DNA from: Heliocybe sulcata
Taxonomy: Eukaryota > Basidiomycota > Agaricomycetes > Gloeophyllales > Gloeophyllaceae
Assembly (NCBI GenBank): GCA_004369045.1
Contig: ML213517.1
Span: 130,757 to 194,756, forward strand
Length of the DNA: 64,000 bases
Direction of reading: 5' to 3'
Shown here: piece after piece, positions 20,867-52,402 of the stretch
Layout of the letters: each line of letters begins with the position of its first letter
Position numbering within the stretch: the stretch's first letter is position 1
Translations under genes and position numbers: made by a program
Notes under the pieces: model-generated
Database searches by the model: none
Told to the model about the DNA's origin: nothing
The model's input: the letters and a program-made list of their open reading frames with translations, nothing else

Positions 20867-22382
20867 ATGACTTCCGTACCGACGAACCCTTTGGAAGTTC
20901 CGCCTTACCAGATTCAACCTCTCATTGCAAGCGTTCTACCAGGTTATCGTGAGTGTAGCACGGAGCTGGGCAGACATATGAAGGTGCCAATGGTGTCGCT
21001 TTGGATACAGAAAGCCCTAATGAGTCTGGAGTTCAAGTGAGGTGCGCGCAGGCTCTAGGTGAGGACAGTCAGACAGACAGCAAGCACTCATAACCAGCTG
21101 AATGACCCGTTATTCGTTAGGCACAGAGATATACATCGGATGCTCAAATGGAGAGCTCCTGCGCTACGCGCTACAAGCTGACAATCCGAATACGGTGTGC
21201 ATATCCTATGTTGTCCCTAGAGAGCTGCACTGATGTGCACAAGCCAGAGTCGTACCAGCTCCTCTCACGTCAGGACCTGCCCACCCCAAAGCCAGTCGAG
21301 GAGATAACGCTGCTCCCAAGTATATCGCGCGCCCTCATATTGCAAGGTTCGTCCGTGACAATAGCATGCTAGTGAAGGGTCTATGCGAGCCCTAATGTTT
21401 CTCGCAGATCGGCAAATCCATATCTACACTCTGCCATCGCTGGACCCCGTGCCAGCTACTCTGGTCAGACCTGTACGGAATGTCGTGTCTTTTGCTGTCG
21501 ATGATGAACACATGCGACGACCTCCTCCTCCTGACCCTTCCTATCCCATGGAGCCAGTAGAGTTCTGCGCGATCAAGCGCAATGGTATCGCGTGTTTTAG
21601 CTTCGCCAGAGATCGATTGCTGTTTCAAAAGGCAGGGTACATTCACTTACCTTCGATTCTTCGCATTCGCTGACTATGTTCTGCACAGGAAATCCCGTCG
21701 TCAGGAATCCTGATGGCCCGCCGTTCCGGAAAATACCTGGGCGTCCTATCTGCGGAAGATAAGACATATGGAATCATCGACCTAGAAGCACAAGCACTCT
21801 TCCCTCTTCTTCCGCTGTCGCAAGCACCCAGTATGGGGCCTTCTGATCCAGTTATCAAACCATCCATTACAGTCATCAGTGAGAACGAGTTCCTCCTGCT
21901 TTCATGGACAGGTGCTAGTACTATTGGCATATTCATCACTGGAGATGGCAATCCTGTTCGTGGAACCATAGAATGGCCCAGCCATCCTGAAGCCTTATGT
22001 TCGTACTGTCCTTCACTTTGCCGTGCTACGTCACATTGAACTAGGATCCTATTCAGGTATCGACTACCCCTACATAACCACCCTGCTTCCCAACGGCAGC
22101 ATCGAAATCCACAGTATCGAAACGCAAGCAATCGTTCAGGTAATCCCCGCGGAGCCCACAACTCCTACACCCTCCCCCCGCCTCGCCACCTTCCCTGTCG
22201 AGTTTGCGATCCGGAAGAATTTGGTGGCGTGCGCGAATAGATACTTCGTGCCGTCGACGAAGCGCTCGGAGAAGATGAAGACGACAAGGGTCAGGCTTCT
22301 GAGGAATACTATGATCAACGCGAATGAGATGGACGACCCGTCGCGCTGGCGGGACAGTGCTATAGATTTGCCGGATGAATGA
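20867..22382 (+). CDS. N-terminal (CNH) half of a Vps3/TGFBRAP1-type vesicle-tethering protein
   Basis: Multi-exon plus-strand gene starting at 20867 (MTSVPTNPLEVPPYQIQPL). Exons read LGTEIYIGCSNGELLRYAL, ESYQLLSRQDLPTPKPVEE, DRQIHIYTLPSLDPVP, EIPSSGILMARRSGKYLG, FLLLSWTGASTIGIFITGDG, IDYPYITTLLPNGSIEIHS, and the frame stops after SRWRDSAIDLPDE. This is a complete citron-homology (CNH) beta-propeller as found at the N-terminus of the CORVET subunit Vps3/TGFBRAP1, but the clathrin-repeat and Vps39 domains that should follow are absent here. They are found on the same strand at 49560-52402. Family length is about 900-1000 residues, this piece encodes fewer than half. No internal break is seen. 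Assignment to Vps3 rather than Vps39 is by sequence feel. Confidence 0.85.
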
Positions 22383-23090
22383 TCATTTACTTCTAGCTGT
22401 GGTGTCAATGGTTCCATGCGCTCATGTCGATCTTTATGTGTATGCAGCGGTAATTCATGTTAGTAATCAGGTCTCAGTGAGCTGCGCAAGCCTTCCAAAG
22501 AAGACTTCCCAGTATTCAATGGGCCCTGGGTGGACTTAAGGGCTCTTCACTCGCCCCTGCAGGCTCAAGTCTGCGTTACTCGTCTCGTACGAAGCGTCAA
22601 GCTCATCCTTGCAACTGGGCTACACGCATCATCAGCTTCATGCATATTGCCCTAAGAGCTGCCCAGGGCTGTGATGGGCTGTGATAACTGTGGTACGAAC
22701 GGTTCAATTGTGGCTAGTGACCATCCTTAGTGGTGATGTACTATCGGCACCTGTTGCGAGAACTTCGTCCGCCGCGGCAGCTTTCTTGTCCACCTCTGTC
22801 GTGACTAGTGTTGTCCGGCTCTGGCGACATCATAATGCAGAATGTAATAGCGACAGTAGATCTGTCTGATCGTTGACTAAGGCCTGCCAGGTTCGTGCTG
22901 TCGGTTCGTCTTGTCTTCGACAGACTGAGTACCGAAGTGCCGTTCTTCACGGGACATCAGTGTCATGTTATACAATATGCAATATCAGCAATACAATTGA
23001 TGCCATACATTACCACTGCAGGATGGACTACAGCGGGTCCCGCCCTACAGCCCGGAGTTGAACCGGGCTCCCAGTTTTCACCAGCGCAGA
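22383..23090. other. Convergent intergenic region at the left side of the split gene
   Basis: About 700 bases between the stop of the CNH half (plus) and the stop of cystathionine gamma-synthase (minus). No coding sequence continuing the Vps3-like protein and no mobile-element signature is seen. Confidence 0.6.
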
Positions 23091-25178
23091 TTATTGCGTG
23101 GCTTCACTACTTTTGACCGCCTCTTCCGCAGCCCTCAGTGCCTTCTCAAATGCTGCAAGCAGCGTCCCCCGATCCTCCAAGCCCACGCTAATGCGCACCA
23201 GCCCAGGGTCCACGCCAAACTGCTCCACCCAGTCAAGCTCGGCATAGTGCGCGAGGATGACATACGGAGAGGCGATTGTGAAGTTCGTACCCAGGCTAGG
23301 ACCCTTGTTGCAGTGAAGGTTGTCGAAAAAGACATGCGACGCGGCTCGTGTGGTGAAGGTGAGGGAGAACAGGCCTCCGTAGCCACCATCGCGCTGGTGG
23401 TCGCTTGTCGCCGCCTTGATGCGACATCGCTCGTAGTTTTCTGGAGTACTCCATTTAGGGTAATACACATCTTTGATCACGCATGGAGCGGAGGCTCCGC
23501 CCGCCAAGGACTGTGCGCGCAAGAAATCACAGAGCGCCTCGGTGTTCTCATTGATAGCGTAGATACGCTTGCGGAAGTTGCGCGAGTTGCGCTCCATGTA
23601 GATGGCGTCCTCGTCAAAGTAGCAATCTTCATAGTTGGCAGCCATGTATGCTTTGAGCTCTTGGTAGTGACGCCCTTTCGGGTTCAGGACGAGGCTGACG
23701 ACAAGGTAAGTCGGCGGATACAACGAACAAAGGGAAGCAAGGACGGAAACGAAGCTTACCTTCCGCCCATGACATTTGCATCTCCACTAAATATCTTGCT
23801 CAGACTACTGACCACAATATCAGCATACGGTAGTAGTTCCACGTTGACCAAGTTCGCAATCGTCTCATCCACCACCATTAAGAAGTTGTACTTGTCCGCT
23901 AATTCACGGAGGCGGACAAGATCCGGCGACCGAAGCAAAGGATTGGATGGGAACTCTGTGAACAGCGCCAGAATCGGCGGCGAAGAGCTCGTGGAAGCTT
24001 CCTTCTCAAGCATTTCTGCTAGGCTGTCAATGTCAGTGGCGGATCCATGGCCGTAGAAATGACAGCCGGGACCCCATTTCTGCAGGATTTTTAGGGTGTC
24101 GGTGTAAGGGAATCTGCACGGAGGTCAATTCCATGAAAGAAAAGAACGAGGAGGCAAAACTCACCCAAAGCACACACTCTTAGCGTGCGGTCTTGCGCCA
24201 AGAGCGAGTTGATGAGCGGACCAAATCGCTGACATACCGGTCGGGTATAGGAATACGTCGTCCTCTGTCACATCGCTCACTCCACGAGAACTAGGACCGA
24301 TCTCGACATCGTTAGACCCAGCGTGGGTGTCGTGGTGACCATCATTCACGAGCACACCCGCTATGCGCCTCCGCATCGCACGCTTCGCGGCAGCGGCAGC
24401 TGCGACGGGAAGATTCCGTCCATATCGCTCTTCCAGGTAGGTGCTCTCGTCCGCGCCGATGGTATCAGGTTCTTCAGCCCGTTTCGTGGGCGACGTAGGA
24501 CCAGGAATAGTAGGCGATTTGGGAATTGATATGGACCGGGAGTAGTGTCTGTTCGTGGATTTCATAGGCCGAGCAATCGGAGCTGGCGCGGGCGACTTCG
24601 TTTGGACAGTCTCATCTGGCAACAACGAGAGCGCACGTTCGGCAAGACGACTGGAGATACCCATGCCCGTGTGCTGCCAGAACTGCTTAGCCAAGGGGAA
24701 GCTCGCTGCAGGAAAGAGGACAATGTGCAGCTCGACGCAGTTAACACCGTTCCGGGAGCTGCCGTTCGTCTTCTTGTCTTCCGGGCAAACAACGAACTGA
24801 ACCAGGCGGACAGAGGTAGTGGTACCAGCCTCAGCAGACCGAGAAAGCATGAACGTACGGCAGTCCTCTGCAAGCCGCTTGGTAGGACATAAAAGACATT
24901 TCTCTCCGTTCACGCCGAACTTTTGCTCACATATACCGGCGAGCTGAGGGTTGATATGTGGTCAGCAAGGACATAATATAGTATACATGTTTGCTCACCT
25001 TTTGGATGCTCAAGTGGATGAAGAACCTCGGGTACCCGATGACCATCGCATCGACCACTCTCTTCTCTCCTTCCTCATAACCGACATTATCCCTCCATGT
25101 AGGCAACGATACAGAAATCGCGTGAGGGGTAAACGGAGGCACAGACGTTCCTAGAGTTGTCGCTATAGTAGCACTCAT
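23091..25178 (-). CDS. met-7: Cystathionine gamma-synthase (Cys/Met PLP-dependent enzyme)
   Basis: Minus-strand gene of about four exons. It starts at 25178 ([20 protein letters not shown]) with [19 protein letters not shown] and [16 protein letters not shown], then [10 protein letters not shown] and [13 protein letters not shown]. Next are [66 protein letters not shown], and [19 protein letters not shown], where the SLSK lysine is the PLP Schiff-base residue. The C-terminal exon ends AVKSSEATQ at 23091. Fungal cystathionine gamma-synthases (N. crassa met-7, yeast STR2) join cysteine to an activated homoserine in trans-sulfuration toward methionine. The extended N-terminal part before the PLP fold is normal for this fungal subgroup. 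Confidence 0.9.
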
Positions 25179-27196
25179 AGTTGTACAAAGGAGAGATCTT
25201 ATTCAGAGTCATTTCGATGGTGAGTGGTGGGTGAACTGTGGAAACGCTTTCGGCCGATCTTCCGCTTGCGCTTGCATTTGTAGGCGCATGCACAACAGAT
25301 ATTCTGAGTAGCAGGGTGTTCGCATCTCACGCGTCACGGGCGAACAATGAGATTTTTCGAGCACACAGGTATGCATGACTCAAAAGGAAGCTCGTACATT
25401 TTCGCAGCACTACAAATTGTATTTACGATGCAAGGACTACAGGTACACCTTCATTAGGTGGACAGTAGAGGCCCAGGAGACGACGTCTATAGAAAAGCGT
25501 GCGATCAGGAACGCCCAAGAATATTAGTGAGCATTATCCCGCACCTCCCGCAAAAACATCGCGAGCGAAGCGCGCATGGGTCTCCGAAGAGACCCAAGGG
25601 TGGAAAAAATTAAGGCAGCAGATCCAGAGTAGTCTGAATCGAGTTGCGCAAAGCAGCGCGCCGCGAATTGAACTGAAGGACGGTGCGGGCATCTACAACC
25701 TATTAGTATCCTCCCTTTCCCCTCGTACGTCGTTTGCTCCCCAGCCAGCGGAGACTTATCATCCTGTTCCGCGGCAGACCGTCGACCATCCCCGCAGATG
25801 GCCGGCCATGAACAGTCATCGCAGAAAAAGTGAAGTCCCATTGTGACATCGACCTCGAAACTGGTTCCACCCGAACGTATGGACCCGTGCGCCAGTTGCT
25901 GCTTCACAACAACGGGCACTTCAGCGCACCATAGCACTGAAGAGTATGTCACACGCCTGCTCGCACTTCATGACGAGTACCACCGCACAGCGATTAGACA
26001 AATGGACAGCTAACGACTCGCGCAACGCGAGTCCACGCATGTCCGATGCCCATATAGGCCCCTAATAGCTCCCGCAGAGCGTTCGCGAGCCATGGGCATT
26101 CGTTACGATACAGGTGGTCGGCCGCTAGCTCTCCGAGAGAGTGCGCACAGGTATCGAAACTAGATGACACTGACACTACTAACTCTCCGAGAGAGTTCTC
26201 ACGTCTTCTGCTGCAGCAGATTGGCCATCACTGATCCCCGAAGACAGCCAGGATCTTAGCCGGAGTGTGTATATGCGTGCGGATAGCATACTGAACTGGT
26301 AAGAGTCTCCAAAAACAAGTACCAGGGCGGTTCCGACATGTGCCGGTCGCAGCTCAACCGCCAGAACTGTTGAAAACGAGAGTGGCGCACCGGAGAGCCG
26401 TACTCAGCGGTGCAGGATCATCCCAGTTTCGCAACCAGGGATATCCTAAGTGGTCCTTTGCCGTCGCCTCCGTAAGGCTTTTTTGAACGATGCCAGCCAG
26501 ACTCTGGGGAACAGACAGGTTCGTTATGTCCTGCCCTCTGGAAAGGAGAGACCAATCTCCTTCTCGCCTTCGAACCAACAATAGCTGCGAGCATAAGCCC
26601 GCCGCATCGCACCGGTCCTAGCGAGACGACGCCGATAGGGAGAAGAGGAAAGAATGAAATGACCACGCACCGCCCAAGTCCCGCAGTGAATTCCAAGCTT
26701 CCCGGTAGTGCCCTCCCTACGACGTAGTTCTCTGGGCGTAATGGACATCCGGGAAGCGACTTTCTGGTGCACTGCTCAGTCTATTACGACCGGTCCCAGC
26801 AAGAGACGATCAAGGGAACTGTAAAGCTCAGACCTTAGCCCACTCGCAAGGAAAAGCCTTGAACTTTGTGCGTAACGAGTATCGCGGCTTTGGACCTGCT
26901 GCTTGCCAGTATGCGAAGTGGCGGAAGGAAAGGCAAATTTCATTGAAGATTTATATAGGCCAAGACAATTTCAAATTGCATACTACCATAACTGGCGAGA
27001 AGTTAACTCACGGTCACGTGGCGTTGTTCCATGAAAGTTGTGGCACCGGGCTGTTAACGCGTCCCTGTTCAAGCTCAAGTCGCTCTCGACGCTGCCGTCG
27101 ACGCTGTTCTCGCCGCGCCTGACAGCGAGCTCTGCATTCTCCTGTCCTCATTCGTCTTCACTCTTTACTGTCTATCCTGTACATTCCTTTGTAACT
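25179..27196. other. Intergenic, 2 kb, no confident gene
   Basis: Several short frames but none with family resemblance or consistent splicing. Holds two copies of a short dyad (see 26138-26197) and, at the right end, the promoter and leader of the acidic orphan gene. Confidence 0.5.
26138..26197. promoter_or_regulatory. Two closely spaced CTCTC-CGA-GAGAG dyads
   Basis: The second copy is a perfect inverted repeat AACTCTC-CGA-GAGAGTT; the first, about 45 bases to the left, keeps the core CTCTC-CGA-GAGAG. Paired dyads of this size can be binding sites for dimeric regulators, but no factor is assigned. Confidence 0.3.
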
Positions 27197-28630
27197 ATGG
27201 ACGCGGCAGAGCTAATTACCGGCATGTCAAACAATCCGTCGTCGTCTGCCATCACAGGCACGCAGGCCAGCGCACTCTCACGCCGCGACTACGACGAACC
27301 GCAAGACTGCGAAGACGAAGACATGGTTATTCCTCCCCGTGCTCCCAGTCGTCTTGCACTGAGGCAGGCGCTTCAGTCAAAGAAAGAGGGGGTCACGTCG
27401 GGAGAAGGCCCACGCCGACCTCAACTCAGACGGAGCGCAGAACTCGGAAGACATCGTCATAGCTATAGCTCATACGATTCTGAAGCAGAGGACACACCCT
27501 ATTCGTCCTCGGACTCTGGCGATGAAGATGGTCATGAGTCCGATACATCAGACTCGAGCGTGGAGGATGACTTCATTTTCGATGCCGTCTTCGGTGCAAA
27601 GCCTGCTCAGGCGCCAGTCATTTCCGAACCCGAAGCTGCCCCTCCCCCTCCACCTTCGCCCCCTGCACCGGTATACCAACCATCGCCCCTCTCTCCGGTC
27701 TCTTCACACGACTGTCAACCACCGGACCGCCCGCATATAATACCTCGACATAACTACCAGCACCACGGTCTGTCTCGCAGCAGCCTTCACTACCAGAAAT
27801 GGTTCTGGGCGATCAGACAGGAAGAATGGGAAGAGTGGGAGGCCCAGGTAGAGGAAGCCCAAGCCGCCGCTACAGCGTATGATGGTATAACGGTGCCACC
27901 CAAACCCTCACCACGGGGACCCCCGAGAGACAGAATGATCGTTCCCGAACCCCCGCCTTCATATAGCAGATTCCATGCTGCAGACCCGAACGCGTCGATA
28001 TACCCTCGTGCAGGCGACCTCTCAGACCTTCCACACGGGCAGTCCGTGCATCTCGACAGGTGGTTCTGCTTCTTCCCCCTGTACAAGGTTCATAAGAAAC
28101 TCTTCTTTTACGACATGCAACACCGGGCAAAGCACAGGTTTTCCCCGGATCCTATGGACTCGCCTCCTAGTGAGGATGACCTGACGCTCGTTGGGGATTC
28201 GTCTAATGAAGTCGAGATCGAGGAAGACGAGAGCCTGGACGATCTCATCCAGGTCGACCTCGGCGGAGGCCACACACGACCCAAGCCGAAACCCAACCCC
28301 CGCCCCTGGGAGACGAACTGGATCCTCCGCTGGGAGAAGTTTGCCGAGATCCTCAGACAGGAAGCGTTCGCGCGGGCAGCTGTGTTCGAACCAGCCACGG
28401 TGGCCACGCCCGTCGACGGCGCCGGTCGCCCGCTGGCCAAGTTCTATTTCGAAGAAGCCGACGAGGACAGCGACGGGAGCACCACGGATCCGGACAGCGA
28501 CGAGGACGACTACGGTGTGCTCATGTCCAACCCTATCTTTACCCGCCCGCTCGGCTTCGGCTTTGGCAGCATCTCGCGCGATATGCATGATTTTGACACT
28601 AGGCAGGAGTCTACGCTCATTTGCACATAG
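27197..28630 (+). CDS. Acidic, disordered orphan protein
   Basis: Uninterrupted frame. I take ATG 27197 (MDAAELITGMSNNPSSS) as start; an in-frame ATG at 27038 adds an uncharged Ser/Leu/Phe stretch that looks like leader. The product is about 477 residues. Visible parts are an acidic Ser/Asp/Glu region (YSSYDSEAEDTPYSSSDSGD), a proline-rich linker (AAPPPPPSPPAPVYQP), a Trp-rich core (YQKWFWAIRQEEWEEWE), HLDRWFCFFPLYKVHKKLFF, and further acidic blocks near the C-terminus (EEADEDSDGS). I do not recognise a family. It is likely a basidiomycete-specific intracellular protein; no signal peptide or membrane segment is apparent from the chosen start. Confidence 0.7.
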   Translation: MDAAELITGMSNNPSSSAITGTQASALSRRDYDEPQDCEDEDMVIPPRAPSRLALRQALQSKKEGVTSGEGPRRPQLRRSAELGRHRHSYSSYDSEAEDTPYSSSDSGDEDGHESDTSDSSVEDDFIFDAVFGAKPAQAPVISEPEAAPPPPPSPPAPVYQPSPLSPVSSHDCQPPDRPHIIPRHNYQHHGLSRSSLHYQKWFWAIRQEEWEEWEAQVEEAQAAATAYDGITVPPKPSPRGPPRDRMIVPEPPPSYSRFHAADPNASIYPRAGDLSDLPHGQSVHLDRWFCFFPLYKVHKKLFFYDMQHRAKHRFSPDPMDSPPSEDDLTLVGDSSNEVEIEEDESLDDLIQVDLGGGHTRPKPKPNPRPWETNWILRWEKFAEILRQEAFARAAVFEPATVATPVDGAGRPLAKFYFEEADEDSDGSTTDPDSDEDDYGVLMSNPIFTRPLGFGFGSISRDMHDFDTRQESTLICT

Positions 28631-28858
28631 GACACAGGACACAGGACACGAAAAGTATACTATTGGCTGGACATGGACCCGCTGGTATCATTGGTATCAT
28701 ATTAAGAACTATCTGTATCCCTAGATTTGTAGTACATCAAACGCCTTATACTGCCCGGTTACCTTCTCTATAATCCATACTCTCGTATACATACCGGTAC
28801 TGCCTGAGTCTATTCTATACACGTTTATATACCATTTACTTCTATCATTATATTGCAA

Positions 28859-30232
<1,374 letters not shown>

Positions 30233-30675
30233 AGTCGTCGATCGATCAGCAGTTATCGGGCTGCCTTGCATTGAAAGGGTGCGCTTTATACACTGAGCGT
30301 TGACTGCGGTGACTGTGCATACTGTACCCGAGAATAAAGAAACACGATGCGTAGTGCGTAATGACTCCCTGGTTTCCTCGGGATGCTACCGCAGTTCGAA
30401 TGGACCACCGACGAATTCGGACTTTGAGGTGCTCGGAATGAGAGGTAGAGTGGTTGCTGCCGCTGTCCGCTGATGGAATAGTCAAAATAGTCTGATAGAA
30501 TAGAGCGCACAGTCCCTCACAGTCCTCACTGCGGAAACTTCAGAGGTGTGGCCGGGACGGTGCGGGCCGCTGCTTGTTGCAACACGGTCACGTGATGGGG
30601 CACGTTGCAGGCGCGCTCGACTTGAACTCTTTCTCGCTCAAGTCTGCGACTACGTACTCACCTCCGCCTCTCGCT
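30233..30675. promoter_or_regulatory. Divergent promoter region of Old Yellow Enzyme copy 1 and separase
   Basis: Holds TATAAAG (minus strand, 30284-30290) for the oxidoreductase gene. The separase side lacks an obvious TATA box. An in-frame ATG at 30574 lies here, but the one at 30676 is favoured for separase. Confidence 0.5.
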
Positions 30676-33600
30676 ATGCCGCCTGTACAAACAACTCGTC
30701 CTCGCACTGCGTCTACTAGGGCCTTTAAGGTCAAGGCGACGACTCCGGTAGCAACGACACCCTCTGCAGACGAATTAGCTGACAAACTCGCATCGGGCCT
30801 CATTATTTCCCAAGATAGCAAAGGAAAGCGCAGGATTCCTACTGCTACTACTCGTGACGAACGTAGCGCTGCCATGCGAGTAGTAAATGAAGCATCCCAG
30901 GGCTTGTCGTCGGCAGTGCAGGCAGGATGGAAGGCGTCATCGTCGTCCAAGGTGCGGTCGGCTGGCAAGACTATCGCGGGCCCTTGGAGTGTATTCACTA
31001 TCAACAAGACGGTACAGACGGCCGAAGAGTTTCTCCAGAAGCTCCGGATACTGAATCCGGAGGACATGGATGTTGAGAGGGTTGCTATGAGTATGGCCGG
31101 GAAGCTCGTGAATCTCGAAATGGTGAGTGGATAGCGATCTTCTTCTTTATGTTCGCTACATCTGCTAACGTGATGCAGTACTCCTGCGCTGCGGGCCTTT
31201 TGAGAGATACTCGTCCTCGCTTCGTCTCTCATTGTACCTCTTTGATTTCACCTAATCCTTCTGGAGAAACCTGGGCCGATGACTTACCTGAAGAGTTCCG
31301 CCTCCTCTGCTTACCTCTCCCTTCTTCCCCCTTTGTCGATCCAGACCTCTTGAACCTCATCTCTACATATCTGCTTTACTCCCTCATTATTACGTCCAAC
31401 TCCGTCTTGCTATCTGACTCTGCTTCGAGCGTGGACTCGCTGCCAGATATCCTCTTCGACAAGCCCACCCTTCTAGCCTGGATTCCCGGCTTGTCTTCAC
31501 TATCTACCAAACATCTTGACTCTATCTACACCCGCGCATTCACATCGCTGGTCAAATCAAGCACATTATGCTCTGGACATCCTGCTGTACTCCTCCGAGT
31601 TCGAGTCTACGCGCTCTTATGTCTCCTGCACACTAGTCCGGGTACCGTTGCGCCCGACACCCTCTGGGACCAAGCGACCAAGTTCTTTACCGCCTTCGCC
31701 AAGAGCATTCAGGGTACTTCGAGGAAGCGTGTACCGAAGCAGGAGGAAAGTGACGCAATTAGTCTGGTCTGCTCGTCTTTCTCGTTACTGGCTTCTTGCG
31801 CCGAGAAACGAAGTTGTAGCACGAGTCTCTTAACCGGGAGAGGCTTCACGCAATGCGGCGAGTACTGCATGAATGTCGCCACTCGGGTTTGTTCATCCAC
31901 TCTCTCCTAAAGATTCCACTGACTATTCATTATCAGACCGGAGATCTGGCGCTCGTGGAACGGATATCTAGTGCTCTGCAAGGTTGTCGAGCGTCGTCGT
32001 CCCCGGAACCTCAGGCGGAGTCTGCTCCATCTGCGCCTGACAGGGGACCAAGTCCGGAGAGCAGAACAGAGACTCCCAGGCCGAAGCATGCCAGTCGCAA
32101 GGAGAAGCAGGATCGCCTCGTGGAATCGGCTCGGATCACGGCGGCTCTTACTGGGATTACGACGTACTTGGAAAATGTCGCTTCTCAAGAGCCAATACCT
32201 AGTAAGTACCCTGCGCCCTAAAGCGTCTCATTTACGAGCAATTCCAACCCATCTAATGTGGAATAGAGGACTGTTTCCACCGTATTCAGGAGGTTAGCGC
32301 AGTCGTCCCCAAATGCGGACGATTTATCGCCGCGAGTGGAAATGAGGATGAAAGTGATGAACAACGCACATCAGCTAAAGTTCGCAGAGCGCTGGAGAAG
32401 CTGCGGCGGGCTGCTGCCAAGATTGTGGATGGCTCTACACATCCGAATTTAGATGCTCCATGTAAACAGGGCTTAAATGGTCTGCTAGTTGATATCGTAG
32501 CTGTTTTGGAGCATGCACTGGAACAGGTCGGTCTGTTTAACTAAATCCACGGATGCGGTATTCACTAATGGTCCGATCTGCAGGGTAATGTCAGCACGGA
32601 GATCTTAACACCAGCCTTCGAGACGCTCTTTATGCTGGCACGATGTAGCCTATCAATATCGAACCCAGACACCCATACGACTGCCTACGAGTTCCTCGCC
32701 CGCGGGAGGCGTATCTTATCCTATTGCTCTTCGTCCTCACCCGATTTGGATGAAGCTACGCATGCAAACTACGTCCGTTGCGTCTCCGGAGCGTTCTACA
32801 ATATGGCTGGCACGCTGTACCAGGCGAATAGGCATGCTAGTGCTATGAGGTTCTTGCAGCCGGGATGTGAGCTCGGTACGGAGGCGCTCCGGCTGAGGAG
32901 CGAGGTGAGGGGTATAGATGTCGAGCCGAAGCAGGAGGAGTCGTGGCGGCAGTTGCAGGAGCAGATGCATAAGCGGTGGGAGTTGCTCGGCGTGTGCTAT
33001 TCCAAGATCGGGGAACGCAAGGTTAGTCTGGTTTGCTTTCCTGTGTCAAGCGTGCACGTGGACCTGATGCCCTTGTAGCTTGCATGCGATGCATTCATCC
33101 AGTGCATCAGAGCGTTTTCGTTTTCCGGCGTGGCGTTTGTTCAACTGGCAAAGTCGGGTCCCTCTGGCTCTGTCTTCGAGGGGACAAAAGACACGAAGCA
33201 GCTGGGCACAATCATTGACAGAGTGACATACGCAGCGACCTGCGAGCTGTTCCGCGGGCCGGGCGACGTGTCGCTCAGATTGGCGCTGTCCTCGCATGAC
33301 AGTGACGTCGTGGGGGCGGTCCTGGAGCGGCAGATAGCTGGTCTTGATGGAAGCAGGTGGAAGGAGGGTGTGCCGAAGGTGATCAAAGGCCTGCTGGACG
33401 ATGCGCTAGCCGTGTATGAACCACGGAGCAGACCCATTAGGAGGGCGCGGGTGCTGCTTCGGTGCATGGAGGCTTGGTATTATCAGAATGATGTGACGAC
33501 GGCGAGGCATGCGGATGAAGTCGGTGAAGAGATCGCGGCGCTGCTTTCACGAGAGGTATGTCTCGCTCCCATTCTGATGCGAGGTGCGCTGAGTAGGTGT

Positions 33601-38669: not shown

Positions 38670-40040
<1,371 letters not shown>

Positions 40041-40046
40041 TGCATG

Positions 40047-40124
40047 TGTATGCTGCGCACCAGATCAAGTGGGAATTCCGATGCGGTGGACCAGCGGAGA
40101 GCTCGCAGCAGCAGCAGGGCCCGT
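40047..40124 (+). pseudogene. Relic of a third Old Yellow Enzyme 3' end
   Basis: Just after the stop of copy 2, 78 bases resemble the gene's own last part (39930-40007): AHQIKWEFRCGGP here against [13 protein letters not shown], followed by a Ser/Gln run and CAGGGCC. I estimate about three quarters of bases match. It looks like the leftover end of a further tandem copy or a local duplication. Confidence 0.6.
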
Positions 40125-41714: not shown

Positions 41715-43836
41715 TCATAGCACGAGGACAGCACCGGATACAAGCCCCAGAAGCGTCGTCACTAGCACCGCAGCCAGCGACGTAGGGATAGCCGTCAAAG
41801 ACGCAGCCGCCGACGAGCCGCTCGGCGCAGCGGCGTTGGTACCAGTGACGCCAGCAGTAGCAGTGGGCGACCCGTAGGGAATCGAAGTCGAGACAGACCC
41901 TGCCTGGCCCGAGCTGAACGGCAACGAAATCGGAGCGTTCGGAGATGCGGTAGGAGCCAGGAGCGTGCCATTCCTAACACCCGACATCCACTGCTCAAAG
42001 TTCTAACAGCACCGCAACGCGTCAGCTGTGCGAAGGATACGCATAATGGCGAAAGGACTCACAGGGTAGGTATAATCCTGTTCCACGTACGGCTTCGTGT
42101 TGTTGTTACACACCGCGAGAGGCGTGATCCACTTGAACGCCTGCTGGATCATCGGGAACCACTTCATGTTCTCAGACATGGTGAAGTTTTGCTGTTGGAA
42201 CGGTCAGTCTTCTCAAACTAGGAGTATAAGATCAGGAAGACCGACCAACTCATGGCTAAGTACCAGGATACCCTCAGTGTCGTAAGTGCCGTTCTTTGCC
42301 TTGTTGATGATGTTCTGAAAGCAGCGAGTAAGTACGGTCCATATCACTCGAATAAACCACTCCGTACCTGGTAGTTCTGATCGACAGTAGTCTGCGGGAG
42401 GGTCGGGTACTCATAGTCGAAGGTGTCCTCAACCCAGATGACGGTTTGCATGCCCAACGACTGAGCAATGTACCGGATACGGTCATCGACGTCACCGAAA
42501 GGAGGACGCCAGCACTGCGGCGTGATACCGAGAACGTCCTTGATGGCCTTCTTCGAGAAGTACACTATAAAAGAGGCCATTCATCAGCACCATATGAAAG
42601 GCGCTACTACGAATACACTCACGCTCAGCAAAAGCCTCCTCGTTCGTCAAAGCCGTCATGTACCGATGCGACCAGGTGTGCGCACAGCTGAATCCGGTTT
42701 AGCAGTAGCAGCAAATAAGCGCAGCGCATCAAAATCAATTCGACGTCACAATCAGACACATCATGTCCGGAAGAATGGAAAAGCGAGCCGTCAGAAAAAC
42801 TCGGGCCAGCAATCAACTAGGAGAACGCACATCTCGTGACCATCAGCCAGACCTCTCTGCGCCTCGAGCGGCCAGTCGAGGACGTTGGAGCCGATGTAGA
42901 ACAGAGTCGCCTTCTGGTTTTGCTGCTGGAGATAGTCCTGTTGGATGGTGTCGGGTACAATCAGTAACCCGAAACGTTAAGAGGTCCGGAAGAGAAGAAC
43001 GCACGTAGTACGCGTTGTGAGAGCAGTTAGGTCCATCATCGACGGTCAAACCCCAGGTGTTGGGGGTAGGGCAGCGCGTGACATCGTTGGCGATGCCAGA
43101 GATTTTCGGAGTCGTGCATTGATGGTACGACCACCAGCAGTCAGGGTCCTATCGAGATGGCGTTCTGTGAGCATCACTCCGTAGCACAGGATGAGATGAA
43201 AGGACTCACAGCGGCAGGATATGTAGGGGTGACGTTTGAGAAATCTCCAGTCTACGTGCGATATGAATAATCACAAAGTCCAAGTTACTAGAACAGAGCA
43301 CGTACGGGAGTACCCTTGGGGGCGATCTGGGGTATCCTGCGCGCGACAATTAAATTAGCATGGGCCTCATGTAGTCGTCATGCAAGCGACGCCACTGAGG
43401 CAACACTTACGTGGAGTTAAGGGTGTTGAATAGTGCAACGGCGTCAGTGTCCGCTGTCTGCAGGTTGGCGATCGTCCAGATGGTCTAAGCGGTCCACATG
43501 CGTCAGGAATGGAACCTAGTCGAGTTTGCCAAGGCCTTCGAAGGTGCACCAACTCACAGGATAGTTATGGATCTAGAGAATAGGTGTGCACAATTGAGTC
43601 AGAAATAGGTTACCAGACGGCAATCGATGAGAAAATAGTGAAGAGCTTCCCAACACTATTCCTCCGAGACTGTTCCTCTTTTCCTTATTACCACTCACCA
43701 TAGCTTGTACAGGCGCATATGAGTACACCTGGCATTCCGCTGTCGGGTCAACGCTGGAAGCCTTGTCCTGCCATGACTGCGCGTTGGAGAAAGCGGCGAG
43801 GGTCACAGAGGCCGCCACAAGGGTCTTGAACGCCAT
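41715..43836 (-). CDS. Secreted, GPI-anchored chitin deacetylase (CE4/NodB)
   Basis: Minus-strand gene with about ten short exons. It starts at 43836 with a signal peptide (MAFKTLVAASVTLAAFSNAQ) and continues HNYPTIWTIANLQTADTDA, DCWWSYHQCTTPK and DVTRCPTPNTWGL. The NodB motifs are intact: TVDDGP near 43.04 kb (metal-binding and catalytic Asp), HTWSH near 42.67 kb (metal-binding His pair) and PQCWRPPFGDVDDRIR near 42.5 kb. The C-terminus is a Ser/Ala/Thr-rich stretch and a hydrophobic tail (LVTTLLGLVSGAVLVL), typical of GPI attachment. Fungal enzymes of this type remove acetyl groups from chitin in the cell wall during growth or fruiting-body formation. Confidence 0.92.
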
Positions 43837-45822
43837 TGTCGTCGACGTTGTCTGGGACGTTAAAAGAGTGCAGAAAGCTGCTAGAGGCAGCGCCGGACTT
43901 GTAGCAGATAGAGACTGGAGACAAAGATGGATGGCAGGACCTGAGAGAGCCAAAATCTAATAAGAGCCTCACGTCGAGCGAAAGCCAACCGTCAACGGGT
44001 CAAACAACAAACCGGCAGCTCGGCACGCGCTTAACTCTATGACGTATAAGGTAATGGATGTATTTATAGGTGATGCATTTGTGGCGTGTGCTACTTTTAG
44101 ACCCCGCAGTGCTATTTGTGGTACTCGGCCAGCGAACTCAGGCATGGCGACCCTTCGCGAATGCACCCCATTCTATTGCCGCCAGCTGCCATCAGCCTGG
44201 AAAACGCCATGAGGGGCTGCTAGTCTGGTTCTTCGCCGCGTAGCATTCATATCCCGCGGAAACTGTGCTTTACATGCGTACGTATAGTCGTGCGACCCGA
44301 GGACATGCACGCTCATGGTGACCGGGCCCGAGCTGTAGGCAGGACGTGTGGACTTTGTGTGCTGATAGGCAATAGGCTGCAGAGCGGATTGACGCAAATG
44401 GAACCAGCCTGGTGAGCAGACAACGATTAATATTGAACCAGTGGCTCGTCGAGCTGCCGTGTTCTCCGAGACATGACCTGTCGCTCTCACACGTCGGGCA
44501 TTCCGTGCCAGCGAAAGGACGTCGATTGTTTTGTCTTCAAGGCACACCAGGCGAGCAGGTGATTTTCTATCGCGCTCTTCTTCAAATACTACTGGCATGA
44601 TAAGCGCTGACTTAGGTTAGTGTTTACAGCGAGCGAACCGGAGTTCTTGGTCCCGATGGAAGTCTCCTGAGTACAAGCCACCCGCCAGATTCTCTCCCTA
44701 AGAACGGAATGTCCTGGAGATGAACCGCTCACTTCAGAACGTCTCCCAATGGGCCTAAAGAGACATCTTCACCTCCCCGGACCTTCTTGGATTGCGTCTT
44801 GCACCTCCGGGTGACATACTCCAGGTATTAGCAAGAGTCTCATGTGCACCTTCGACCGTTGCTCTATTCTGGGCATCACTGTTAACGGGATATACTAGCC
44901 ACCGAGGCCGGTATTTGGACCTGTTACTGCGTGAAGACGCGCGGAAACGTCCCTGTACACTCCAAGTATAAGTAAGTGCTACACTCTTGCCGCTTCTTTA
45001 ATCTTTACTAACTTTACATAGGTATAGACAGCTACGATCTGTCTTCAATGCTATCCCTCGTGCATTCCAAAGGTCTCCCTCTGCTTTGTCTCATTGCAGA
45101 GCACAAGGTCGGTGATCGGACGGCTTACGCGCGGTTGACATCAACATGAGATATCAGACACTAAGGCCGCGCGCAGCATATATGCTAGCTACTATGAAAG
45201 AACATATCACAGGTATGCTATCTGTTATAGGTCTTTCTACAATTGTCTAGCAAGCTAGGGATGTTTCGGTGAGCATTAGACGTCGCAAATTGTATCCGGG
45301 CGCGAAGACATGATGCACGAATCGCGTCTTCGCTCTGGGTACAAATAGCGTGGCCGGTGGGCGTTATCTTCGCATAAGCCGCTATGTATACTGCCTCAAA
45401 AATGCTAACGGTGTTCTGATTCTACTGATATGGAGGCCTGTCTACGCGAGTCTGCCTCACTTTTTTTAGGAATTATCGGCCTATTGCGGTCGACTTCAGT
45501 TCAAGTATGTCGCATAGGCTCCACCTCCTTCACCAGTTATTAGGAAAGAACTCCAGGCGTCACAGTCTGAACACCTCAAGCTATACAGTAAGGACCTAAG
45601 CCCAGAGGTTACTCACCCTAAGCGAACCCCACACGGTTCCCCAAAGCACGTGGCGCAGCGTATCCGATGGGCACGATGTTCACTAGAACGTAGAGCGAGT
45701 GCTTCGGGGGCTATCTGATGTCGGCGCAGGTTAATGACGAAAGTCTGCGACCTCATCGACGCTCAGGCAGTAGAGCTCTATCTATCCATCCTATCTTCCA
45801 CGCAACAGAAACTAATTGAAGT
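43837..45822. other. Intergenic, 2 kb, no gene recognised
   Basis: Upstream of chitin deacetylase (minus) and of the first DUF6593-type gene (plus). No family-like frame, RNA gene or repeat boundary was found. Confidence 0.5.
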
Positions 45823-46458
45823 ATGACGCACTATACCTTCAAGACGATCGGGCGCAAAAGCGGGCACACCGAGATCCTCCCCGACCACGGACATGGGGAC
45901 CAAACTACATACTCTGTCGAGGGGCGCACGGGGTGGTTCTCGGATAAGTCTCCTTTCAGGATCAGCAAGCGCCTTAATGGGCATACATACCAAGTCGGCG
46001 AGGTGAATATCAAGTCCGACTGTGTAACCTGCAATCGTCGGACAATACCTTTGCATAGCAGCAGATTTTCCAGGTACGCTTGATAAACACGGATTTCTTG
46101 TTCGTGGCTGAATTCCTGTATCGCACAGCTCACGGAAGTTCATCGCTTTGAATGGCGAGAAGTACGTGTGGAAGATGGACGGTGTAGCTGGCGCACACGT
46201 GAGTCCTGCCATCGTAACATTTGTCCCGACAGCTCGGACACATCTTGTCTTCATATGTAGCTCCTGACGGATGATAACTCGAAGCGCACTGTTGCTTCCT
46301 ACACTGCTGCGCACGGCTTTTTCAAGAAGAAACCTGCAGAGCTCAGCGTATACGGAGAAGGCGAGACGATGATAGACGAGGTGGTGGCGACTGTCGTGTA
46401 TATGGGGCGTAAGGTGGACCGGAGAAAGAAACGGGACGAGGTGGTGTCGGTGATGTAG
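45823..46458 (+). CDS. DUF6593-type protein, tandem copy 1
   Basis: Exons 45823-46073, 46129-46198 and 46261-46458. The product is about 170 residues and starts MTHYTFKTIGRKSGHTEIL. Visible pattern: TTYSVEGRTGWFSDKS, YQVGEVNIKSDCVTCN, GEKYVWKMDGVAGAH, SKRTVASYTAAHGFF, LSVYGEGETMIDEVVATVVY, and a basic end (RRKKRDEVVSVM). This beta-rich layout with a closing D-E-V-V-x-T-x-V-Y helix matches the basidiomycete DUF6593 family, whose function is unknown. No signal peptide or membrane span is seen, so it is probably cytosolic. Confidence 0.85.
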
Positions 46459-47089
46459 TCGTGTTTGCAGATCCGGCGTGGCTGTTCCAGCCCTCTGAAC
46501 TCCGCAGGGGGGGCGCTGTTATGGCCGTGGGGCGGGTAGGACTTGATTGTGAATCAACCACTGTGTATCTATCTATTTTAAATGCCTGAATGCCTGTGCC
46601 ATACGAAGCCGATGAGGAAGACGAAAACACTTGCACCGATCAGCAGTGGCAGGCCACATCCACGGTGCACATACATGCAGGTACGCAGCTATTTCCTGGG
46701 CGTTGCCTAACTGGAAGTGGAACTCGCCAAGCCACCGAAGCGCATACCACTCGCATCAGTTATGTATCGTTACCATCATGGCGCGCGGATTCCAAACGTC
46801 ATTGGGCGGCGACATACTTCACCTGGCGAGGACGCTAAACTATCCGGCGATAGATGCCAGGTGGGCACCACTTGTCCACAGAGTCCTCCAAGCAACTGGT
46901 ACAGCATATTTGATGGAGAAGCTACAGTGCTCAAGACATTGTGGAGCAAGGACTCTTAACGGTGGCTATGCAGTGGACAGTGTGGAGGAAGGTGATCAAA
47001 GCCTCTGTCCCCATCGTGGTTCATGTAGTGCTATATAAGAGAACTCGATCCATCCGCCAAGTCTTACACAGAAGACCACTACTCGAAAC
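46459..47089 (+). promoter_or_regulatory. Spacer and promoter between DUF6593 copies 1 and 2
   Basis: TATATAAG at 47032-47039 lies about 55 bases before the ATG at 47090. A stretch near 46700-46745 (CCTAACTGGAAGTGGAACTC) resembles one upstream of copy 3 (near 48048-48075), so the tandem duplication probably included upstream DNA. Confidence 0.55.
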
Positions 47090-47748
47090 ATGACGCACTA
47101 TACCTTCATCTCACGCGCGCGCAATGAGGGCCACATCGACATCGTCCCCGACCAGGGAGATCTTACATCGTACTCCATTGACAGACGCACCGGCTGGTTC
47201 TCGGACAAGTCGACCGCACGAATCCAGAAGCATGTGGAAGGAAGAACATACGAGGTCGGCGAGGCCAGTGTCAGGTCTGACCGTGTAACGTGCAATGGTC
47301 GATCGATCCGTCTGCATGGCAAGATGTTCTCCAGGTACGCTTGCGAGTTATCTGTTACAGTTGTAAGTCTCATACCGTGCAGCTCGGAGACGTTCGTTGC
47401 CCCCAATAACCAGAAGTACAAGTGGTCGATGGATGGTGCGCATGGCGCCCATGTAAGTCACTTCGTATATAATCCTTGATTACAGCAGCACTCACCTCAG
47501 TCCTATTCTGTACGCAGCTTCGAGCAGATAAGGAGTCGACGGATACGAATATTGCTTCATATACCGCTGAGCACGGGCCCTTCAAGAAGCCGGACGAACT
47601 CACGGTATATGGCGAGGGTGAAATGATGATGGACGAGGTCGTCGCAACCGCCGTATACATGGCGCGAAAGGTGGCCCTCAAGAAGAAACGACGTACGAGC
47701 GTTGCTGGTGCTGTTATTGAATTCCTCGGGGATGGACTTGGGGGCTGA
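47090..47748 (+). CDS. DUF6593-type protein, tandem copy 2
   Basis: Three exons with the same joints as copy 1: the first intron follows the MFSR stretch, the second follows DGAHGAH. It starts MTHYTFISRARNEGHIDIV, then RRTGWFSDKSTARIQKHV, YEVGEASVRSDRVTCNG, NNQKYKWSMDG, IASYTAEHGPFKKP, LTVYGEGEMMMDEVVATAV and ends AVIEFLGDGLGG. It is the closest relative of copy 1 in the window and has a clear TATA box. Function unknown. Confidence 0.87.
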
Positions 47749-48371
47749 GTGCGAATGTTCGTGAGATCGACCGGCAATTCGTACGGAGGAAAGATGTCTT
47801 TGTTGTAGACTTTATTTGTATTTAAGCTGGTAGCCTTGTTGTGTATACCAAGGTATCGCGGACTTGTACCATACTATACCTGTGGACCTCTATGGCACGT
47901 TGGTTGTGTCCAGGGCAGTCCCTAGGCTCGTAATCACCCTCTTGTACGAGATGGGGCAGATTGTCGTAGGCGACAGAGACGGTGACCACAACTACCTCTG
48001 ACATCATCCAGCTGCACGCAACCCCACATACTCAGCAACCCCCTTGTTGCCTAAATGGAAAGTGTATTCGCCGAGCCTTATAGACTACCATCAGCTAAGG
48101 GTGGCACTGACACAGCCTTAAGACTCGGCAACTCACATCACGTTAGACATTGCTTCATTGGTATCTATGCTTACCTTGTAGGAGAATTGACGTTTCGGTA
48201 AGGCGATGCACATATTGTGGGGTGCGTGTTGCGACCATGGCCATGGCTGTTCCAGCGTACATAGCGTAGGGCTGGCAAATTCGAGAATGTCGCCACCCTT
48301 TAGTGATATATAATCCGAGGGCTTCTCAGGATTTCGAAGATCATTCTAGTCTCATAACCAATCCTATCACT
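47749..48371 (+). promoter_or_regulatory. Spacer and promoter between DUF6593 copies 2 and 3
   Basis: TATATAA at 48307-48313 lies about 60 bases before the start codon at 48372. It contains the second version of the upstream element shared with the previous spacer (CCTAAATGGAAAGTGTATTC, near 48050). Confidence 0.55.
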
Positions 48372-49005
48372 ATGTCAGTTCTATTCACCTGGGTCTCCCC
48401 CTCACGCAAAGGCGGTCATATCGAAATCACGCCCAACGATAACCGGTATGGCGTTTACATTGCCGACCGAGAAACTGGCATCCTTCATACCAGGTCGGAC
48501 ATCATGATCGAGAAACAAGTCGACGGGACGACGTACCAACTGGGAACTGTGGACATCAAATCGGGGCTTGTTACCTGCAATGGACGGACGGCGACAATGA
48601 ATAGAGTCTCCAAGCTCAGAGCGTGCGTCTCCCTGGACAAATGATCAATGGGAAACCTACCTAACTGATGCGCACACAGCCACGAGACTTTCGTTGCGTA
48701 CAACGGGATGAACTATGAGTGGGAAGTAGAACCCAGGGGAGCACATGTCAGTGAAAGATACTTTGAATGTCGGCGGTGCCAACTGACCTATAATACAGTT
48801 GAAAGTTGAAGATGAATCCAAACGCACTATTGCTTCTTTCACAGCTGAGCGCGGCTATTTCGGTGCAAGAGAGCCTGCCCAGCTCATCGTGCACGGGGAC
48901 GGGCTGATGATGCTGGACGAAGTCATTGCGACAGCGGTCTATATTGCACGTAAGATGGTCATTAGGAGAAATGCACAGATCGCAGCAGGTTCGGCGACCA
49001 CTTGA
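48372..49005 (+). CDS. DUF6593-type protein, tandem copy 3
   Basis: Three exons with introns at the family positions (after VSKLR and after PRGAH). It starts MSVLFTWVSPSRKGGHIEI, then VYIADRETGILHTRSD, YQLGTVDIKSGLVTCNG, MNYEWEVEPRGAH, SKRTIASFTAERGYFG, LIVHGDGLMMLDEVIATAV and ends AQIAAGSATT. It is more diverged from copies 1 and 2 than they are from each other. No defect seen. Confidence 0.86.
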
Positions 49006-49559
49006 GGGACGCGGGGACATCCAGTGGATACACCATCCCCAGGGGCGTATCCGCACAGACTCTAGTCAAGTTTAATTAGTAGCTCAGCATAGAATAATGG
49101 ATAGTATTCGAAGAATAGAAAGACAAACTGATTTATATGAATAACCGGCCAGCGTTCTTCTCTGCGCAATGCTGCCCGATCGCATGTCTTTCTTGACTAT
49201 CCTGCGATCCAAGGGCAACTTAGACTTCAGCGTTGAGGAGAGCCATAGAGCGCTTTCCCGCCATCCTGGTCTTGCCCATGTTCATTGAGAGGGTTATGAA
49301 CACCAGTATGAATTAACGTAGAACAAGGATATTGCATTTTTACAGTCCAGTATGACTCCATGAGGCTGACGACGAAGTAGCAGGCTTTATTATGCTTCTG
49401 ACGCCTCGATACACTACAAAATTCGCACAACTACAATATAATTCTCACGATCACAGACAGAGCTACCCGACATTGACCAGCCACGTTATGATTACTTGCT
49501 AGTGCCACGCTGCTACTATAGCATTTCGAATCCCTGAGCTCGACAATCTGCTACATGCG
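49006..49559. other. Intergenic region just before the C-terminal Vps3-like half
   Basis: No gene seen. In the last part, an open frame already reads IPELDNLLHAM directly before the ATG at 49560, and a TATAG acceptor-like site lies just upstream near 49520. This suggests the first piece of coding sequence here was once an internal exon rather than a gene start. Confidence 0.55.
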
Positions 49560-52402
49560 ATGAACGAACGAGTCTCCTTCCCCCGTTCGGGCATACTAGT
49601 ATTGGGCTCCAACACTGTCCAATCCCTCGTTCCTGCGACGCTCGTATCCCAGGCGGAATCCTTGCTCGAGAACCATAGGATATCCGAAGCCATTGATCTT
49701 GCTGAACAGCAGAGGAAGAGGCTCCAGTCTAAGCTTACTGCGGAGTACGATGAGGTATTCCCACAAACGTCCGCGTTCTAATGGTATCTGACGCGTCGCC
49801 TATGTGCAGACAGAGGAACTGCACTACGTGTTCCAACGGATAGGCCTGCAATGTTTCTCAGAGACTATGTTCGAAGATGCTGGAAAGTACTTGTTAAACG
49901 GCGAGCTGGACCCTCGGATCCTCGTGAGCTACTTTCCAGAATACCGAGGCGCGTTGTTCGCGCCGGACGACGCGATCGACATGTTTGCGGGAGTGGCAGA
50001 GTACCTGCCGGAGGAGGATACGGTCGCTGACCTCAGTGAGCGCTCATTCCTTGACCTTTGATTGTACCCTTGTTCTCCAACCTATTCTGAATTCCACTGA
50101 ATATATTGGGCTCCCTTCACTTTCTCCTTCTCTCTAAAATGCTTGCAAAACTCAGCCTTTCTTCTCACCCGCCATGTCGGGACTGATTGCAGTTGCACAA
50201 AACCTAGTCAGGAACTACTCCCCCCATCTCAAACCGAACACGCGCGAGGCACGGCCTACAGTGGAGCTATCAGATATCCTAAAGGACGAAGCGCGCGGGA
50301 TGCTATATACCGTCTTGCAGGGTTGGCGAAGGAAGGGAAGGGTGGAAGACAAGGGTCTGGCTGTGGTGAGAGATGTCAAGAAGGTGAGTGCTGTCACGAT
50401 TATCTGGTGACTATGTCCTGACAGTGAAGAGAATAGGTTGTCGATACGGTTCTTACGAAGATGCATGCCGAGAATGGGGATACCCCGGAATTGCACAAGA
50501 TGTTGGATTCTGACAACGATGTCCTTCTAGAGGAGGTTGAGCCTATCCTGATCCAGTCCCACCAGTTCAATGTCTTGTGCAAACTATACAGACAGCGTGG
50601 ACAGGAACGCAAGCTATTAGACGCTTGGGCCAAGTGAGTTGATGCTTGAGTTGACATGAGCAGTAGAGTGTTCACTGACTCCTCCACACTCAGACTCGCT
50701 GAAGGAGAATGGGCCGATGAAGACCTCCCCGATCCACTCACAACAATGTTTGATTATCTAAGCGAAAAGCGAGATCGCGCACTCATCCAGCGCTGGGGCG
50801 TCTGGTTCTCTACTAAAGATCCCGAGAGAGGTCTCAAGGTTTGTGTAAACGTACTTCGTCTGCGCTCCTGATGCTCACCAGCCGTGCAGCTGCTAATATC
50901 CCGAGACGCTGGCAAGCGAGCGGGCAAGGCGGAAGACGAACTGGCTCTCCTTGAACGGCTACGGGATGCGAGTCCCGTCGCAGCTGCTCAGTACTTGCAG
51001 CATCTGGTTCTGCAACGGCGCAGCACAGTGAGCGAGAGTTCGTTGGTGTGCATCTGTTTAACTCTAAATCATCTTTATTTCTCCCAGAATCGAGAGTTGC
51101 ACCAGCAGTTGGCCATGGCCTGCATTGATCAGGTTCTTGCCTGCATGGTGGATGATAATGTCACGAAACTCTGGAGGGCTAAAGGTTAGGACGGATCCCG
51201 CTCAGCGGCAATTTCTATGTGCTTACTCCTGAACTTCCAATCAGTGTCCTCGTACTCGTCAAGTACATCAACTTCCTCTTCAAGTTCATTCCTGGCGTAC
51301 TTTAATTCGACCACGCCCGACTCGGAAAGCAAGCGGATACGTCTGAAAACTATACTGTTCTTGCAAGGCTCGAACTTGTACGATCCCGAACCAGTGAAGC
51401 AGCGGCTGGCGGATTATGCCAAGGTTTTCCCGCTGGAACTGGCTATCGTCGAAGGGAAGGTGCGTAGTGTTCTCGTTCTTCTGGTACCTTCGTTGAGCCG
51501 GCTGCGCTAGCTGGGCCACCACCGAGAAGCGCTCTCAGTTCTGATGCAAACGCTTCATGACTCGCGATCAGCGGAATCGTATTGCACCCTTGGAGGTGAT
51601 GTTGTCACGACGAGGCTTGCTTTGTCTATAGGGGAGAAGCATGATCTCTTATTGTTCGCGTCCCTTTTGTCTGGATCTGTACCCGGAGCGAAGAGCAGAG
51701 CACCTAGGATGATGGCGAGGCAGCAAAGTGCGGACGAAGATACTAGAAAGAAGTTGCTAGGGATCTTGCTAGAAGTCTGCATGAGTGGCGGGTGCGTGTA
51801 ACCGGATCCGATGCCTATTCAAGGAGGCCTTCTGACGTGCTAATATGATCCCAGGGAATTAATGGCAGAGAGTACAGCTCGGTTATTGAATTCGCAAGCC
51901 ATGAATCTTGACATCGTGGATGTAAGTCTGGATTCCTTTGCCGTCTATTCTTTATACTTGACTCATCTTCACGTCCAGGTCATCTCACTGGTACCGCCGG
52001 ATTGGCCTCTGAACCTAATGTCTTCGTTCCTTACGCGATCGTTCCGTCGATCCTTACACAGTATGCATGAAGGACAGATCGTAAAGAATATTAGCATGGC
52101 CCAGAATACCGAGGTGAGACATCTTTTGGTCGTCCTCGCGGTTACTCTGACAAATTGTTGACGAACGCCACCAGGTCGCTGAGCGGACGTGGGTGGTTAT
52201 CCGAGAACAGGGTGCTGTCATCGAGGAGCCGGCCGAGGATGATGAGGACGGTGAGGCAACGGGTGAGAAGGAAAAGATTGGTGAGATTCTCAATGAGAAG
52301 TTTGGCTTGCATGAGGAGGCGCCGGTGGATGCGATACAGGTTGATGAGGAGAAGGAGAGGGGTACAGGAGATGCTACGGAGGTGGACGAGGGTATCAGCT
52401 GA
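49560..52402 (+). CDS. C-terminal half of a Vps3/TGFBRAP1-type tethering protein (clathrin-repeat and Vps39 domains)
   Basis: About eleven exons on the plus strand. The first possible ATG in frame is at 49560 (MNERVSFPRSGILVLGSN). It continues VPATLVSQAESLLENHRIS, YVFQRIGLQCFSETMFEDA, LVRNYSPHLKPNTRE, FNVLCKLYRQRGQERKLL, LGHHREALSVLMQTL, DSRSAESYC, DVISLVPPDWPLNLMSSFL and SFRRSLHSMHEGQIVK. The order is the clathrin heavy-chain-like repeat region, Vps39 domain 1 and Vps39 domain 2 expected for the rest of a Vps3/TGFBRAP1 protein, and there is no CNH propeller. The end is an acidic tail stopping at 52402. All exons are open with normal splice sites. Its missing front matches 20867-22382. As it stands, the promoter and true start are uncertain. 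Confidence 0.85.

Follow-up and report, generated by a model that had tools for sequence, protein, structure and literature searches.

In the basidiomycete Heliocybe sulcata, a gene of the Vps3 type, expected to encode one subunit of the CORVET complex, is found in two pieces. The window analyzed here is a stretch of 64,000 nucleotides (assembly GCA_004369045.1, contig ML213517.1, positions 130,757 to 194,756 of the forward strand), which is gene-dense and has a fairly even GC content of 0.50–0.61 per kb. On one of its strands are two open halves, complementary and collinear, that are separated by ordinary genes unrelated to them: an N-terminal piece at 20867–22382 (+), carrying a CNH β-propeller, and a C-terminal piece at 49560–52402 (+), carrying an α-solenoid with a Vps39_1 domain. 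In the window as assembled, CNH and solenoid do not form one polypeptide and occupy separate open reading frames 27 kb apart. An earlier sequence-only reading of this DNA had described the two same-strand pieces as halves of one Vps3/TGFBRAP1-type gene, and our results agree that they complement each other as parts of a single protein of the Vps3/Vps39 family. We lean, with modest confidence, towards a real fission of a Vps3-type gene, driven by a rearrangement and leaving a working C-terminal half.

The gene models of both pieces were assembled manually from three-frame translations. The N piece comprises seven exons (20867–20948, 21011–21058, 21121–21194, 21244–21346, 21408–21631, 21689–21998 and 22057–22382) that encode 388 amino acids, with the stop codon at 22380–22382. 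The C piece comprises 12 exons that encode 704 amino acids. All 19 exons are open and neither spliced model has an internal stop, as had been described from the letters alone. The summed length of 1092 residues is near that of yeast Vps3 (1011 residues) and of the single-gene Cryptococcus family member Vlp1 (1044 residues). The modeled introns are 49–157 nt long, all 17 with an acceptor AG and 16 with a donor GT. The description of the splice sites as good thus holds for most of them, the exceptions being a GC donor in the intron at 21632–21688 and an acceptor end AAG in the intron at 21195–21243. These odd sites affect two of the six introns of the N piece and none of the 11 of the C piece, a distribution with a chance of ≈0.11 by manual calculation, so that their clustering in the N piece may be fortuitous.

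The N piece matched the Pfam CNH family (PF00780) with an E-value of 2.2e-15 over profile positions 5–247 of 255, in accordance with the claim of a CNH propeller that ends with a stop at 22382. In a phmmer search against solved structures, its best match was yeast Vps3 (8qx8_E, 1.3e-11). Vps39 from Chaetomium thermophilum, which is a HOPS subunit, was matched more weakly (7zty_A, 1.4e-4), and the CNH domain of Rom2 had an E-value of 0.005. The C piece matched Pfam Vps39_1 (PF10366) with an E-value of 9e-11 at residues 206–295, corresponding to profile positions 1–92 of 108. The other family listed at E ≤ 1, SgrR_N (0.038), was below the cut-off and is a chance match. The C piece had been credited with more than one Vps39 domain; Vps39_1 was found, but neither Vps39 domain 2 (Vps39_2) nor any zinc finger had a Pfam match at E ≤ 1, and the last two exons contain no cysteines. 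Human VPS39 is described, in the portion of the literature available to us, as having a putative C-terminal zinc finger. By its lack of a zinc finger the C half is Vps3-like, in agreement with the CORVET structure paper (PMC11187117), in which yeast Vps3 is described as having no extension at its C-terminus. The C piece had also been said to lack a CNH. It indeed gave no CNH match, but it opens with the strand preceding the solenoid and so includes some sequence from the CNH side. By these tests, the N piece is classified as Vps3-like, being nearer to yeast Vps3, and the C piece is placed at the level of the family; its head fits the corresponding segments of Vps3 and Vps39 about equally.

In the coordinates of the family, the two pieces abut. 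A joined query, consisting of a stretch of the N piece, four X and the start of the C piece, was searched against the solved structures and matched yeast Vps3 with an E-value of 1.5e-4 in a collinear alignment spanning 294–518, the head of the C piece lying within 457–518. The alignment of the N piece alone ends at residue 393 of yeast Vps3, and the C piece joins the alignment at the strand SLIVYNNLGIHLLVP (466–480 by count). On Chaetomium Vps39, the head of the C piece falls on 372–415, 20 residues past the end of the N-piece match at 352. In pairwise alignments, the opening 60 residues of the C piece scored 43 against yeast and 41 against Chaetomium, and none of 500 shuffles reached either score; the final 79 of the N piece were at chance level against these targets, where 162 and 175 of 500 shuffles scored as high. 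When the whole C half was used as the query, the same place was picked, with nine of 500 shuffles reaching the score for Chaetomium and one of 500 for yeast. The targets had been preselected by the joined query, so that the shuffle test is somewhat favorable and confirms the placement rather than discovers it. In our reading, the pieces together neither lack nor duplicate any conserved part of the family, and the break would fall in a loop of variable length, from ≈20 residues in Chaetomium Vps39 to ≈70 in yeast Vps3.

From a rough count of stop-making and splice-breaking changes, considering substitutions alone, an unselected half would be expected at the 95% level to have gained a stop or lost a splice base by a divergence of 4.6% for the N half and 2.2% for the C half. 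The open frames thus put unconstrained drift since the split, if there was any, below roughly these values. The open frame of the N half would argue that the split is recent or that the half is still in use; the two odd splice sites are a mild hint of relaxation. It is quite improbable, in our estimation, that the pieces are complementary relics, left by a tandem duplication or by an extra copy that has died, while a full-length working Vps3 gene lies elsewhere in the genome. Their shared strand and order would suit a duplicated gene after complementary loss, and the window contains other tandem and inverted duplicates; yet the 19 exons are open, the 17 introns have usable joints, and no remnant of the solenoid half could be recognized beside the N half, nor one of the N half beside the C half.

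A misjoin in the draft assembly had been named as the main dull alternative. Through misassembly, or through mixing of two nuclear haplotypes, to which dikaryotic fungi are generally known to be prone, the halves could be adjacent in the real chromosome, with the 22.4–49.5 kb block belonging elsewhere. Abutment in family coordinates is what a false cut would produce, and the window does include a run of N, the sole one, located at 1939–2018 as previously reported. However, two false joins would be required, both outside the modeled frames and without N. No exact repeat longer than 11 bp is common to the two junction regions, which share one 13-bp stretch with one mismatch. A random cut would have fallen in the variable loop in ≈6% of cases (≈255 of ≈4360 bp, by our own arithmetic). 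The composition of the block is also ordinary, as 66 of 200 random splits were as far apart in tetranucleotide make-up as the block and the rest of the window. The need for two false joins and the position of the break weaken this explanation, which we consider unlikely while granting it appreciable weight.

The sequence-only reading had also noted coding sequence just before the first ATG of the C piece, as if the piece had begun as an internal exon. An open run of 19 codons, which follows a TAG and contains IPELDNLLHA, is indeed present. A former internal exon would use an acceptor at 49521 and start at 49522, but this AG scored 0.48 bits, and the GT at 22357, which is the sole one in phase 1 towards the end of the N piece, scored 1.54 bits. 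Lower leave-one-out scores were obtained for three of the 17 modeled acceptors and two of the 17 modeled donors, and a 2-bit cut-off would remove seven of these acceptors and two of these donors. Since 17 of the 43 AGs upstream of the C piece (48980–49559) exceed 2 bits while modeled sites score lower, the matrix hardly discriminates, and we count the putative former internal exon neither for nor against the fission. An upstream first exon at 49170 was dropped because it has no donor, as judged by reading rather than scoring. The same pair of sites, the AG at 49521 needing phase 1, would be used if the halves were still one gene, connected through trans-splicing or through a splice spanning 27 kb. 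Both sites exist, and their low scores are undercut by those of some modeled sites, as noted above; against this stand the stop at the end of the N half, the several genes on both strands that intervene, and the brevity of all the modeled introns. We hold such joining to be extremely improbable.

The nearest counterpart to this arrangement is an experiment in yeast, in which Epp and Ungermann (2013) cut Vps3 at residue 426 into Vps3-deltaN and Vps3-deltaC (PMC3688683). The domain order is the same as here, and residue 426 lies inside the loop (≈394–465) that corresponds to the gap between the H. sulcata halves. Yeast Vps3, on the other hand, is encoded by a single gene and was cut in the laboratory, whereas here the split is 27 kb wide and present in the sequence itself. 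According to the accessible part of that study (PMC3688683), the C half assembles into CORVET, perhaps slightly less well, and sorts cargo provided that Vps8 retains its N-terminal domain. The isolated N half remains outside CORVET and behaves like a deletion. Neither half bound Vps21 in vitro, and the authors name the N-terminal domain as the sole Vps21 site demonstrated in Vps3. The available portion of the CORVET structure paper, which describes the complex as an evolutionarily conserved tether, instead predicts that Vps21 binds to the solenoids of both Vps3 and Vps8 (PMC11187117).

Vlp1 of the basidiomycete Cryptococcus neoformans (CNAG_05395) belongs to the Vam6/Vps39/TRAP1 family and has, like the two halves taken together, CNH and Vps39_1 domains. 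The available text describes one gene with 12 exons that encodes 1044 amino acids; unlike the H. sulcata pair, it includes Vps39 domain 2, and it is filed as Vam6-like rather than as Vps3 (PMC8228526). The Chaetomium structure represents the N-terminal domain of Vps39 (7ZTY; PMC9592082, as far as its text is accessible), and the chain is continuous through the ≈20-residue loop (352–372) into the solenoid strand that opens the C half here. An old, clade-wide fission, by which CNH and solenoid proteins would always be separate genes in this lineage, would be compatible with two open halves, and nothing dates the split. We nevertheless judge it very improbable, since close linkage on the same strand would be expected to disappear over time and the basidiomycete Vlp1 is a single gene. 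No report of a naturally split Vps3 or Vps39 was found in the open-access literature, as judged mostly from listings, and no relative of either half was found in the scanned collections, which were the non-fungal sets of viral contigs and prokaryote genome contigs, where none was to be expected. A search of control genomes for Vps39_1, positive in 0 of 14, is uninformative. Gene fission and fusion are reportedly a general process in fungal genomes.

Under the fission reading, a rearrangement in H. sulcata or an ancestor would have divided the gene of one Vps3-type CORVET subunit into two genes, the break falling within the variable loop, after the main body of the CNH propeller and before the strand leading into the α-solenoid. 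Candidate routes are the transposition of a block, a pair of inversions, and a tandem duplication followed by complementary loss. Each half would then have its own transcript. The C half, translated from the ATG at 49560, would attach by its solenoid and C-terminal helix to the Vps11/Vps18 core of CORVET and tether Rab5 endosomes, much like yeast Vps3 lacking its N-terminal domain; by analogy with yeast, it probably serves CORVET still. If the C gene can serve CORVET alone, the split would be survivable, and the N gene could then decay, function by itself or re-dock. The propeller half may thus be in the course of being lost, have a role by itself, or re-bind the solenoid half non-covalently. 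In the last case, the propeller might accept its last strand from the C half, which carries it. A two-polypeptide Vps3 of this kind, with the propeller re-docked on the strand of the solenoid half and the Rab5 tether acting either as a heteroheptamer or with the propeller as a detachable module, is a speculative extension that we consider rather unlikely.

Several points weigh against fission with a working C half. The exclusion of the yeast N half from CORVET and the failure of either half to bind Vps21 would argue against easy function in trans. The GC donor and the AAG acceptor end could be signs of decay in the N half. The C half matched no solved structure up to an E-value of 1, and a 372-residue part of it matched none up to an E-value of 10. 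Its first 111 residues, searched alone against the solved structures, found neither Vps3 nor Vps39, optineurin being the sole match (E = 0.17 and 0.53), and in the joined search the C-head segment by itself scored −1.4 bits against Chaetomium Vps39. In addition, the reading assumes that the ancestral gene is contiguous in close kin, a second full-length copy may lie elsewhere in the genome, beyond the window, and the breakpoints are placed to regions, not to the base.

The positions of the two halves, the junction regions and the genes of the intervening block are listed in Table 1. Among the block genes claimed by the sequence-only reading, separase, the two Old Yellow Enzyme (OYE) genes and the cystathionine-synthase-like gene were recovered with profiles. 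The DUF6593 assignment was also obtained with a profile, although the match to PF20236 on 47039–47479 (2.7e-5, 24.9 bits) is just under the cut-off of 27. For the chitin deacetylase, a candidate was seen by eye alone: the RPPFGDVDDRIR-type sequence at 42006–42976 is presumably a deacetylase motif, and the candidate gave no profile match, the earlier motif patterns being empty there as well. The cystathionine gamma-synthase match (PF01053, 4.4e-8 on 23091–23786) reaches profile position 380 of 381. In the separase gene, we take the GHGGGEQY at 37671 to be the separase motif.

Table 1. Features of the two Vps3-type halves and of the block between them.
Feature	Position	Strand	Evidence and remarks
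N half: CNH β-propeller, Vps3-type	20867–22382	+	7 exons, 388 aa; Pfam CNH; phmmer
N-half intron with GC donor	21632–21688	+	AAG/GCAGGG...CACAG; joint that preserves the frame
Apparently non-coding stretch, N half to convergent cystathionine-synthase-like gene	22383–23093	.	left junction here or in the last N-half codons
Cystathionine gamma-synthase-like gene, C-terminal part	23094–24124	-	PF01053; open stretch 23759–24124
Old Yellow Enzyme gene 1	28862–30385	-	PF00724 6.2e-23; second open reading frame 1.7e-5 (below cut-off)
Separase gene, approximate limits	30499–38115	+	PF03568 2e-24 and 2.6e-63; TPR_12 2.5e-7
Old Yellow Enzyme gene 2	38598–40040	+	PF00724 3.2e-24 and 7.7e-24
Probable chitin/polysaccharide deacetylase	42006–42976	-	RPPFGDVDDRIR-type sequence by eye
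Three tandem DUF6593-type genes	45811–49002	+	one by PF20236, two by DNA similarity
Region upstream of C half	49003–49559	+	right junction here; open for a short run from 49503
C half: solenoid with Vps39_1	49560–52402	+	12 exons, 704 aa; PF10366; without C-terminal zinc finger
C-half start matching strand and first helix into solenoid (yeast Vps3, Chaetomium Vps39)	49584–49700	+	joined phmmer, pairwise shuffles

The two OYE genes are inverted copies that flank the separase gene, with 84.2% DNA identity over 1376 bp (28858–30232 on the minus strand versus 38670–40041 on the plus strand). The pair could act as a substrate on which separase might be inverted. We rejected it as the cause of the split, since it lies inside the block, away from the ends, and could explain inversion of separase at most. 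No transposase or tyrosine-recombinase family, as would mark a transposon or a Starship-type cargo insertion, was found among the 28 open reading frames of the block scanned with Pfam, short exons being outside the scan, and the junctions share no long repeat; a transposon origin of the block thus gained no support. Adjoining the first OYE gene, at 27035–28630 (+), is an open frame of 531 amino acids that shows a strong coding bias but matched no Pfam family at E ≤ 1.

The flanks of the two pieces also contain recognizable features. On the left, the nuclear RNase P RNA is found at 12794–13407 (+), where Rfam RF00009 scored 41.2 bits with the whole model covered and ≈305 extra bases inserted after model position 239. 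Between this gene and the N half is a diverged tandem duplicate (16850–16911 and 17851–17913; 17221–17410 and 18194–18403) with 70–79% DNA identity, and neither of the two open reading frames there matched a Pfam family at E ≤ 0.01. Downstream of the C half, an open reading frame at 54294–54857 (+) is perilipin-like, its match to PF03036 (6.8e-6) being below the curated cut-off.

The role of the Vps3 propeller is the matter on which the H. sulcata arrangement bears. In yeast, loss of the propeller is tolerated as long as Vps8 keeps its own N-terminal domain, according to the accessible part of the work on the cut protein (PMC3688683). If the fission reading is true, the H. sulcata gene would have been split nearly at the laboratory cut site, and would offer a clear instance of fission in which the genes that interrupt the halves are still present between them. 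It would then amount to a natural experiment on the Vps3 propeller, as a part that is dispensable, working in trans, or being lost.

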